DNA from: Dyella halodurans
GTDB lineage: Bacteria; Pseudomonadota; Gammaproteobacteria; Xanthomonadales; Rhodanobacteraceae
Direction: 5' to 3'
Assembly: GCF_026283925.1 (NCBI RefSeq)
Contig: NZ_JAPDPF010000011.1
Location: forward strand, 1-64,000
DNA length: 64,000 bases
Shown: piece after piece, positions 12,408-15,562 of the stretch
Layout: every line of letters begins with the position of its first letter
Numbering within the stretch: the first letter of the stretch is position 1
Notes under the pieces: generated by a model
Databases searched by the model: none
Seen by the model: only the letters and a program-made list of their open reading frames with translations
What the model was told of the DNA's origin: nothing
Made by a program: the position numbers and the translations under genes

Positions 12408-13280
12408 ATGAACTGGCTGCAGAAAATCATGACTCCGCGTGCCCGCACGCAGGCTTCCTCCACCGCCGGCAAGGGCAAGGTGCCCGAGGGCGTGTGGGAG
12501 AAGTGCGGCGGTTGCGGCACCGTGCTGTATCGCCCGGAGCTGGAACGCAACCTGATGGTCTGCCCCAAGTGCGGCCATCACCACAACATCGACGCCCGCG
12601 CGCGTCTCGATTCCTTCCTCGACGCGGGCTCGACGCAGGAGTTGTGGGCCAGCATGGAGCCCAGCGATCCGCTGAAGTTCCGCGACTCCAAGAAGTATCG
12701 CGACCGCATCATCGCGGCGCAAAAGTCGACCGGCGAAAAGGACGCTCTGCTGGCCATGAGCGGTCGCCTCAAGGGTCGTCCGTTGATGGCCGTCGCGTTC
12801 GAGTTCTCCTATATGGGCGGTTCGATGGGCTCGGTAGTGGGTGAGAAGTTCACCCGCGCCGCCGAACGCGCGCTGGCCGATCGCAGTGCCCTGGTGTGCT
12901 TCTCCGCCACCGGTGGCGCGCGTATGCAGGAGTCGCTGTTCTCGCTGATGCAGATGGCGAAGACGTCGGCGGCGCTGGCGCGCATGCGCGATGCCGGCGT
13001 GCCGTATATCAGCGTGCTGACGCACCCCACCACCGGCGGCGTGTCGGCCAGCCTGGGCATGCTGGGTGACATCAATGTCGCCGAGCCGAAGGCGCTGATC
13101 GGCTTTGCCGGCCCGCGCGTGATCGAACAGACCGTGCGCGAGACGCTGCCGGAAGGCTTCCAGCGTTCGGAGTTCCTGGTCGAGCATGGCGCCGTCGACC
13201 TGATCGTCGATCGTCGTGAGATGCGCGACAAGCTGGCCGATCTGCTCGGCCTGCTGATGAAGGCGCCGCGCGTCGCCTGA
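12408..13280 (+). CDS. accD: acetyl-CoA carboxylase, carboxyltransferase beta subunit
   Basis: AccD is the zinc-ribbon subunit of the carboxyltransferase that makes malonyl-CoA for fatty acid synthesis, with AccA as partner. The 290-residue protein has the four zinc cysteines C33-x2-C36 and C52-x2-C55, then the crotonase-like fold with [10 protein letters not shown] and the [10 protein letters not shown] motif. It has a normal start and length. Xanthomonads often have folC directly downstream of accD. Here a terminator and a repeat array follow instead. Confidence 0.96.
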
Positions 13281-13306
13281 TCGCGCTACAACGAGGCTTG
13301 ATCAAG

Positions 13307-13338
13307 AACAGCGTCTCGCCCAGCGAGGCGCTGTTTTC
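13307..13338 (+). terminator. Rho-independent terminator after accD
   Basis: A stem of about 13 bp (AACAGCG-T-CTCGC / GCGAG-G-CGCTGTT, with one T-G wobble) has a three-base CCA loop and is followed by TTTCGT. It starts 27 bp after the accD stop and fits the end of the trpBA-accD transcript. Confidence 0.75.
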
Positions 13339-13354
13339 GTTTGCGTCGATTGAA

Positions 13355-13794
13355 GTTCTCCACAACTAATGTGGATGCAACCTGGGTAAGCCTGTGGAAA
13401 AGCCCGCTTGGGGCCTTTGACGACAAGCACTTGCTACACCGTGATGAAGATATGACCAGAACGCGCGCAAGTGCGCTGCACTTTTCCACAGCCACTGTGG
13501 ACGCGCTCGGGGTAAGCCTGTGGAAAAGTGCTGTTGCATGCTTTGCGGTCAGGCACTTGCTACACCGTGATCACTATTTGCGCAGCTGCTGGCAGCGGCT
13601 GATGCGGAGTTTTCCACAGCGATTGTGGATGGTGTTTGCGTAAGCCTGTGGACAAGCTTGAATGTGACCTTTGCGAACAGGCACTTGTTACGCCGTGACG
13701 ATGTTTTGATCAGCACGCGCGCGCGAATCGGTGACGAGGGCCCGTGTGTTTTCCACAGCCGATGTGGATGCGCGACGGTAAAGCCTGTGGATAG
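13355..13794. repeat. degenerate tandem repeat array rich in DnaA-box-like 9-mers
   Basis: Three full units and a partial fourth recur at spacings of 126, 128 and 139 bp (GTGGA at 13371, 13497, 13625 and 13764). Each unit has TTTTCCACAG or a variant, then a GTGGA arm, then GTAAGCCTGTGG. Units 1-3 also carry CACTTGCTACACCGTGA or a close variant. Twelve TGTGGA/TCCACA-centred 9-mers occur. Those at 13356, 13393, 13482, 13519, 13610, 13647, 13749 and 13786 differ by one base from the DnaA box TTATCCACA or its complement. The stretch 13281-13860 shows no credible gene. A role in DnaA binding is inference. Confidence 0.7.
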
Positions 13795-13860
13795 GTGTGC
13801 TATCCGCTTGAGTTCAAAGCAACTGCGACGCACTGGCCACGAAATGCGCAGCGCGGTGAA

Positions 13861-14433
13861 TCACAGCATCAGCGAATGCAACGGCAGCAACCACAGCGAG
13901 AGCGCACCCAGCGCGCTGCCAATCAGCGTCGCCGCGAACACATCGCTGGGATAGTGCAATCCCAGTATCACGCGTGACGCGCCCACCAGGGTGGTGAACG
14001 TCAGCAGCAACGGGGCCAGCACCGGATACCAGGCGAGTGCCACCACGGTGAAGCTCACCGCCTGCAAGGTATGGCCGGAAGGAAAACTGAATTCGTCCAG
14101 CGGCGGCACGTGCGCGATCACGCCTGGGCAGGCGCGGAACGGGCGTGGCCGGCGCGTATAGCGTTTGAGCAGGCGATAGAGCAGCAATGCGGCGAGTCCC
14201 GTCACCGCCATCTGCGTGGCCGCGAGCAGGCCGTGGCGGCCGCCGACCAGGGCGAGCACCAGCATCAGCGAATACCAGAACACCCCATCACCGAGTCGGC
14301 TGATGATGCCGAAGAACACGCCGACGGCGCGGCGTGTGCCCCAGCGGTTCGCCGCCACGCACATGCGGCGGTCAATGGCCAGCCTGGGGCCGGCAGGCAA
14401 CTCAGGCGTGTGCAACGGCGGCATGGCGTTCAT
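13861..14433 (-). CDS. PAP2-family membrane phosphatase
   Basis: A 190-residue integral membrane lipid phosphatase, probably acting on undecaprenyl pyrophosphate, phosphatidic acid or a similar lipid phosphate. The three PAP2 motifs are visible: K90-x6-RP97, PSGH at 118-121, and SR153-x6-H160 with D164. Several hydrophobic segments surround them. I chose the ATG at 14433, which overlaps the upstream glycosyltransferase by 32 bp. A longer frame upstream lies entirely inside that gene and is unlikely to be used. The pair may act together in envelope lipid or glycolipid metabolism. Confidence 0.87.
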   Translation of the reverse strand: MNAMPPLHTPELPAGPRLAIDRRMCVAANRWGTRRAVGVFFGIISRLGDGVFWYSLMLVLALVGGRHGLLAATQMAVTGLAALLLYRLLKRYTRRPRPFRACPGVIAHVPPLDEFSFPSGHTLQAVSFTVVALAWYPVLAPLLLTFTTLVGASRVILGLHYPSDVFAATLIGSALGALSLWLLPLHSLML

Positions 14434-15562
14434 GAGTGAGCTCCTGGGCCAGTTCACGCAACAGGTTTTCGAACTCGCCGATAACCGCATCCGGCGAGAG
14501 ATTGGCGATGCTGGCGTGCGCCGCGCGCCCCATGTGACGAATCAGGCTCGCGTTGCTGGCCAGGGTCGTGGCGGATTGGATAAAGGCTTTCTCGTCGCCG
14601 ACGTCGATGCGATAGCCGTTGTGGCCGCTGTGCAGATGCTCGCGCGCGGCGCCTTCCTCGTAGGCGACCACGGGCAGGCCGGAGGCGAGCGCTTCGAGGA
14701 TGACGTTGCCGAACGTCTCGCTGAGGCTGGGAAACGGAAACAGGTCCGCGCTGGCGTAATGGCGCGCAAGCATTTCACCGCGCTGCATGCCGGCGAAAAT
14801 GAAATCCGGATTCGCTTCCTGCAATGCCGCGCGAGCCGGGCCATCGCCCACCCACACATAACGTGCGTTGGGCACCAGCTGCTGGATGGCGCGGAACGTA
14901 CGCACGGCAAGATCGAGGTTCTTCTCCGGCGCGATGCGTCCCACATACAACACGACCGGCGTGTTGCCATCCACGCCCCAGCTACGGCGCAGTTCGACAT
15001 CGCGGTAGCGCGGATGAAACAGCTGGGTGTCGACCGCGCGACGAAGCAGGCGAGCCGTGTCGACGCCGAGGGCGGCCAATTCCTTGGCCAAGGCCTCCGT
15101 CGGCACCAGGGTGGCTGCCGCGCGGCGATGGAATCGACGCAGGTAATTCCTCACCACCGGCGTAAGAAAGCCGACGCCGTAGTGGTCGGCATAGGTGTCA
15201 AAGCGGGTATGGAAGCCGGTGGCGGTGGGGATGCCGAGCCGCTTGGCAGTGCGCACGGCAGACCAGCCCAAGGGGCCTTCGGTGGCGACGTAGATCGCGT
15301 CGGGACGCAGGCGGGTCCAGCGCTCCCGCAGTGCGCTGCTGGCGGGAAGGCCGAAGCGCAGGCCTGGGTAGCGGGGCAGGGAGGCCCCACGGACTTCCAG
15401 CGTGGTGATGCCCGGTTCGTCGTCGAACACTTGCTGTTGGCGGGGGCGGATCAGATCGACCGTGTGGCCATGCGACGCCAGTCCGGCGGCGAGGCTGTGC
15501 ACGGTCAGTGCCACGCCGTTGATTTCGGGTGGATAAGTCTCGCTGACAATGCCGATGCGCAC
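14402..15562 (-). CDS. GT4-family glycosyltransferase (mannosyltransferase-like)
   Basis: A 386-residue retaining glycosyltransferase of the GT-B fold. The N-terminal domain begins with RIGIVSETYPPEINGVALTV. The C-terminal GT1-type domain contains YVGRIAPEKNLD and the nucleotide-sugar motif ALASGLPVVAYEEGAARE. It resembles the cytoplasmic GDP-mannose-dependent or diglucosyl/sulfolipid-type GT4 enzymes that modify lipids. The donor and acceptor cannot be read from sequence. GTG at 15562 is chosen because it starts right at the conserved first strand; the longer frame adds unrelated residues. It overlaps the PAP2 phosphatase gene. Confidence 0.87.
   Translation of the reverse strand: MRIGIVSETYPPEINGVALTVHSLAAGLASHGHTVDLIRPRQQQVFDDEPGITTLEVRGASLPRYPGLRFGLPASSALRERWTRLRPDAIYVATEGPLGWSAVRTAKRLGIPTATGFHTRFDTYADHYGVGFLTPVVRNYLRRFHRRAAATLVPTEALAKELAALGVDTARLLRRAVDTQLFHPRYRDVELRRSWGVDGNTPVVLYVGRIAPEKNLDLAVRTFRAIQQLVPNARYVWVGDGPARAALQEANPDFIFAGMQRGEMLARHYASADLFPFPSLSETFGNVILEALASGLPVVAYEEGAAREHLHSGHNGYRIDVGDEKAFIQSATTLASNASLIRHMGRAAHASIANLSPDAVIGEFENLLRELAQELTHERHAAVAHA

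Follow-up and report, generated by a model that had tools for sequence, protein, structure and literature searches.

What does a tandem array packed with DnaA-box-like sequences do between accD and a PAP2-superfamily gene, away from the origin of replication? The question arose from the 64,000-nucleotide stretch of Dyella halodurans DNA analyzed here (the window), in which an earlier note, made from the sequence alone, had described repeat units of 126-139 bp. We found four 49-nt core copies starting at 13356, 13482, 13610, and 13749 (spacings of 126, 128, and 139 bp) and together spanning 13356-13797. The counts given in the note were reproduced: twelve 9-mers are centered on TCCACA or TGTGGA, with hexamers from 13359 to 13791, and eight of the twelve, namely boxes I and III in every unit, are one base off the DnaA box TTATCCACA. 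The box II 9-mers are two to three bases off. Units 1-3 carry the additional motif CACTTGCTACACCGTGA or a variant of it, as described. In each unit, box I on the + strand is followed after 14 bp by box II and after a further 23 bp by box III, both on the - strand (9-mer start to start), and this spacing is rigid across all four copies. The element runs past 13794, since a Fis-like site of unit 4 lies at 13835-13849. The features of the locus are as follows.

12408-13280, + strand: accD, 5′ of the array, which comes after its stop codon (ORF; TIGR00515 above cut-off)
13356-13364, + strand: unit 1 DnaA box I, TTCTCCACA (sequence scan)
13370-13378, - strand: unit 1 DnaA box II, weak 9-mer with hexamer TGTGGA, 14 bp from box I
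13393-13401, - strand: unit 1 DnaA box III, TTTTCCACA, 23 bp from box II
13424-13436, - strand: unit 1 IHF-like site, 1 mismatch to consensus, weak evidence
13443-13457, unstranded: unit 1 Fis-like site, 1 mismatch to consensus
13482-13490, + strand: unit 2 DnaA box I, TTTTCCACA
13496-13504, - strand: unit 2 DnaA box II, weak, by its hexamer
13519-13527, - strand: unit 2 DnaA box III, TTTTCCACA
13547-13559, + strand: unit 2 IHF-like site, 2 mismatches to consensus, weak evidence
13569-13583, unstranded: unit 2 Fis-consensus site GATCACTATTTGCGC, 0 mismatches, at the enriched position +44 after box III
13610-13618, + strand: unit 3 DnaA box I, TTTTCCACA
13624-13632, - strand: unit 3 DnaA box II, weak, by its hexamer
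13647-13655, - strand: unit 3 DnaA box III, TTGTCCACA
13675-13687, + strand: unit 3 IHF-like site, 2 mismatches to consensus, weak evidence
13697-13711, unstranded: unit 3 Fis-like site, 1 mismatch to consensus
13749-13757, + strand: unit 4 DnaA box I, TTTTCCACA
13763-13771, - strand: unit 4 DnaA box II, weak, by its hexamer
13786-13794, - strand: unit 4 DnaA box III, CTATCCACA
13801-13813, - strand: unit 4 IHF-like site, 2 mismatches to consensus, weak evidence
13835-13849, unstranded: unit 4 Fis-consensus site GGCCACGAAATGCGC, 0 mismatches, +43 after box III
13861-14490, - strand: PAP2-superfamily gene, convergent with accD, with relatives at array loci (ORF; PF01569 above cut-off)

The supposition that far fewer such sites would occur by chance held: when the window was simulated 300 times with a first-order Markov model, the count never exceeded four hexamers per 440 bp, against the twelve observed. 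The pattern TTNTCCACA had 39 sites in the 4.69-Mb genome (25 contigs), seven of them in the array, and the reversed control pattern had 52. The inverted pair TCCACA-N{2,8}-TGTGGA occurred at six genome sites, always with 5 bp between the hexamers, and its reversed control at none; four of the six are in the array, so that the genome scan proposed in the note left only two places outside it. A second locus of 14/23 geometry (gap 17 between the hexamers of boxes II and III) lies in the same genome beside an SDR-family gene, at C19:379028-379187, and consists of two opposed units, one of which has lost box II (C19:379028-379073). An exact core of 14/12 geometry (gap 6), with two perfect facing TTATCCACA boxes, lies directly upstream of priA at C19:386532-386566 (L020 16533-16567; PriA assigned by profile match). 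We rejected a genome-wide mobile repeat because, beyond the window array, our searches gave only this one gap-17 locus and the priA core. The origin itself was also rejected, as dnaA lies on contig C1 with boxes of its own and the array on C2. Two ATATCCACA boxes lie 12 bp apart upstream of dnaA (L237, C1:50619-50639) and two perfect TTATCCACA boxes downstream of it (L237, C1:52122-52164); these flanking groups are likely to be the dnaA control region and oriC.

Detailed knowledge of DARS sites (DnaA-reactivating sequences) comes from E. coli. We fetched DARS1 (bioD-uvrB interval) and DARS2 (rppH-mutH interval) of E. coli K-12, scanned them for boxes, and found that in both the offsets are 14 bp from box I to box II and 12 bp from box II to box III. 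PMC5742627, PMC8682772, and PMC4245941 provided the DARS anatomy, and the first two name the head-to-head box I-II pair as the feature of DARS sites. The window units, judged by their hexamers, share with E. coli DARS the three boxes, with box I opposed to boxes II and III, and the 14-bp I-II offset. They also share with DARS2 a Fis-consensus site downstream of the core, which in the window is a consensus match only and which lies at +43/44 after box III in 14/23 units, compared with +113 in DARS2. The principal difference is the II-III offset of 23 instead of 12 bp, which displaces box III by 11 bp, roughly a turn of the helix. In addition, the window modules are in tandem, their box II is weak, their IHF sites are uncertain, and they lie at accD or an SDR gene rather than at bioD-uvrB or rppH-mutH. 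By comparison, the core at priA in this genome has the E. coli box order and both spacings. We therefore do not file the window array as DARS, given that one defining spacing and the locus differ; it is a DARS-like variant.

To see how these geometries are distributed, we used the open-gap pattern TCCACA-N5-TGTGGA-N{2,32}-TGTGGA, which needs the box II hexamer and so leaves units without box II uncounted. It matched 109 times across 22 single-contig relatives; gap 6 accounted for 22 of these matches, one in every genome, gap 17 for 86, and gap 20 for one. The 14/12 and 14/23 geometries thus cover 108 of the 109, and the reversed pattern had no match in these genomes. Families f2 and f12 gave 94 matches in 28 genomes that had been chosen because they already matched in the order-level search (11 with gap 6, 75 with gap 17, and eight with gap 18). 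The pattern was present in 206 of 233 family genomes, representing 25 of 26 genera, with no exact match in the remaining 27; in 246 of 398 genomes of the order-level search; and in 165 of 369 of the class-level search. Among the class-level matches listed, nearly all had gap 6, the E. coli type, a handful had other gaps, and none had gap 17 outside the source's order. Units number from one to six per array. Slightly different keys for removing duplicates gave 86, 87, or 85 gap-17 units in family f1, and loci added later brought the number to 92. Box II of the gap-17 units is weak, with 0 of 85 matching TTWTNCACA and 57 of 85 having two mismatches. In the priA cores the weak box is III instead, so the strong pair has changed. 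Some genomes carry extra dispersed gap-17 copies, among them two members of the genus, in which closely similar single units are scattered at C1:963370, C1:1119856, C13:281979, and C15:599943 (G044) and at C1:474740 and C1:1212379 (G048); these look as if they had been copied recently. A gap-12 version of closely similar sequence (TGTGGACGGAA.TGTTC.TGTGGA) was seen in two distant families (G029 C2:491418 and G529 C4:237296).

The position of the Fis site links the two geometries. With the Fis consensus GNNYANNNNNTRNNC, taken from PMC8682772, 31 of 87 gap-17 units had a perfect match at +43/44 after box III, where 100 shuffled sets gave at most two at any position, and 14 of 18 priA cores had one at +54/55, where the shuffled maximum was one. 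Measured from the end of the box II hexamer, the Fis site lies 66-67 bp away in both the 14/23 and the 14/12 form. The Fis site and boxes I-II thus stay at a constant distance from each other and only box III shifts between the forms, which points to two versions of a single element. In f2, the Fis position carries a dyad close to TGGCGAAAATTTCGCCA, and perfect consensus matches there, at +41 to +43, were confined to 10 of 65 units. Altogether the f2 units (L240-L294) have two conserved dyads after box III, this one at +43 and another at +14 (near CCTTGCG..GCAAGG). For IHF we searched with WATCARNNNNTTR, which we take to be its consensus. With at most one mismatch, IHF-like sites of gap-17 units were found at +22 on the forward strand in 6 of 87 and at +9 on the reverse strand in 8 of 87 (shuffled maximum two); allowing two mismatches raised the reverse +9 position to 34 of 87 (shuffled maximum four). 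An IHF-like site at +88 is common to 8 of 18 priA cores. The IHF sites in the array units are therefore weakly supported candidates. As to the protein partners, the DnaA of this organism is 55% identical to that of E. coli, with R399, D433, H434, T435, and L290 unchanged, the first four of which we take to be DNA contacts. L290 is described as needed at DARS2 in PMC5742627. Homologs of Fis and of Hda were present in 16 of 16 genomes tested for each.

The conservation in relatives that the note had proposed to look for was found. Searched with the array, 129 of 233 family genomes had a DNA match at E ≤ 0.001, in 21 of 26 genera, and accD lay within 3 kb of the array and shared its orientation at 16 of the 20 array loci fetched (eight genera), which had been drawn from places that already matched the open-gap pattern. 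The flanks of these loci in relatives include trpB, trpA, and usually PAP2 and gltX relatives. In four genus members (G047, G048, G055, and G062), one more array is located roughly 1 kb upstream of trpB, and a third is close to the SDR gene. Among the best 80 of 587 accD loci from named genomes, the inverted pair was present at five, from four Rhodanobacter records and Dyella marensis (L021-L024 and L027), whose AccD is 91% identical to that of the window; it was absent from the accD stretches of Luteibacter sp. dw_328 (L025) and a MAG (L026). Within the family, gap-6 cores lay upstream of PriA at all 18 loci inspected, 17 fetched from relatives and one from the genome under study.

What stands of the functional suggestion in the earlier note, with good backing from the sequence, is that this DnaA-box cluster lies away from oriC and is probably tied to replication control; it also belongs to a repeated family that had gone unrecognized; the analogy with datA has weakened because of layout and position. 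A datA-like array, on which ATP-DnaA and IHF would assemble and hydrolyze ATP and so lower DnaA activity, has in its favor the clustering of DnaA boxes outside the origin and the IHF-like sequences of some units. Nevertheless, datA is origin-proximal, at 0.10 genome length from oriC, whereas the main array is found at 0.28-0.47 genome length from dnaA in each of 19 single-contig relatives (16 with the accD array and three with the g16 main cluster). In this it is like DARS1 (0.33; DARS2, 0.21), the E. coli distances being calculated from an oriC coordinate that we presume to be correct. The SDR-linked 14/23 arrays are nearer the origin, at 0.11-0.19 in five of five genomes; eight other dispersed 14/23 loci, on recounting, lay at 0.16-0.44, and the priA core at 0.03-0.24 from dnaA in 22 of 22 single-contig genomes. 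Gene order is conserved, so these positions are not independent and the argument from position is confounded. The box layout differs as well. With at most one mismatch allowed, the E. coli datA stretch (L236) has boxes at 1878+, 1945+, 2107+, and 2119-, among which there is no 14-bp head-to-head pair with a third box; the head-to-head pair is the feature named for DARS sites, and datA has an IHF site between its boxes, according to PMC5742627. The same text calls clusters of DnaA boxes in B. subtilis and Streptomyces datA-like and says that they repress untimely initiation. We rejected identity with datA on the box layout and on the distance of the main array from the origin in relatives, the nearer SDR-linked arrays notwithstanding, and regard a datA-like function as very unlikely.

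Passive titration, in which the modules would be dense DnaA sinks after replication, working without nucleotide exchange and adding capacity with each further module, accounts readily for the crowding of many boxes, for the variable number of units per array, and for the extra dispersed copies in some genomes. Titration, however, needs box number and affinity rather than a fixed three-box geometry, and it would not call for the two-valued spacing, for a Fis-like site at a fixed offset, or for a box II that is weak yet retained, although retention of box II is built into the search pattern, which counts only units with its hexamer. We consider it rather unlikely; it remains the chief rival to recharging because binding and exchange look the same in sequence. 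A role in transcription, as a DnaA-regulated promoter, or as RNA hairpins was suggested by the 14-bp perfect stem GCACTTTTCCACAG/CTGTGGAAAAGTGC that unit 2 can form. Against this, the two genes flanking the window array converge on it with their 3′ ends, and flanks were convergent at 23 of 36 f1 gap-17/18 clusters and 8 of 22 loci of other families, as counted with a crude gene caller that wrongly labeled the window's own locus tandem. Base pairing between the flanks of boxes I and III does not exceed that of shuffled partners, with -1/+1 pairing in only 20% of 85 units, and the best Rfam match to 12800-14400 scored 23.8 bits, nowhere near the gathering score of 95. A structured RNA was rejected on these last two results, and we hold the promoter and RNA explanations together to be highly improbable.

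We conclude that the 14/23 module is a new spacing variant of a DARS-like element. On balance we favor, with moderate confidence, the explanation that the array consists of four tandem DnaA-binding modules that are related to the DARS core and recharge ADP-DnaA. Its parts differ in strength: DnaA is likely to bind the array, going by the boxes; Fis is predicted to bind it, as we infer from the consensus matches; and recharging by ADP release, as opposed to titration or ATP hydrolysis, is suggested less certainly, by analogy with DARS. Under this model, two DnaA molecules would sit head-to-head on boxes I and II of each module, and a third would occupy box III, oriented as on box II and a helical turn farther away than in E. 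coli. ADP-DnaA would assemble on the modules, and Fis would bend the DNA and distort the DnaA complex, possibly helped by IHF from a site that may lie between the Fis site and box II. ADP would then be lost, and the released apo-DnaA could rebind ATP. The array would in this way raise ATP-DnaA ahead of the next initiation, alongside the single classical DARS core upstream of priA, and its tandem copies would multiply the dose.

We also considered whether the modules have a direction. Among 65 loci from 23 single-contig genomes, 63 run with the replication fork when read from box I to box III, the exceptions being a locus of G100 at 4.158 Mb and the priA core of G019, and GC skew agrees with the dnaA-based arm at 31 of 31 loci. 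In f2, 42 of 55 fetched loci are co-directional with the fork by GC skew; loci on G298, G429, and G490, some of those on G432 and G433, and the gap-6 loci are outside this set. Judged by coordinates, DARS1 of E. coli is co-directional with the fork and DARS2 is opposed to it. Because many of the loci in relatives are orthologs of one another, the bias is no more than suggestive. A bolder idea is that the 14/23 modules are an order-specific class of DnaA-switching arrays that are polar, their direction being coupled to the passing fork; we think this unlikely, its probability being lowered by the SDR-linked arrays in the origin half. If it were true, late passage of the fork through the accD arrays of the terminus half could recharge or release DnaA, thereby linking the completion of one replication round to the following initiation.

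We found no report of DARS in the source's order in the literature searched, mostly open-access texts and in part only. There, conservation of DARS is described for E. coli-proximal species, DARS-like sequences are noted in Vibrio cholerae (PMC6090056), and PMC13220808 has E. coli and B. subtilis as its subject. Our results indicate that the classical core spacing extends far across the class. Within it, a tandemly amplified form in one order, with box III one turn away, amounts to a natural spacing experiment on how DnaA must be arranged for recharging, and it offers testable replication-control loci in the relatives of Dyella and Rhodanobacter.
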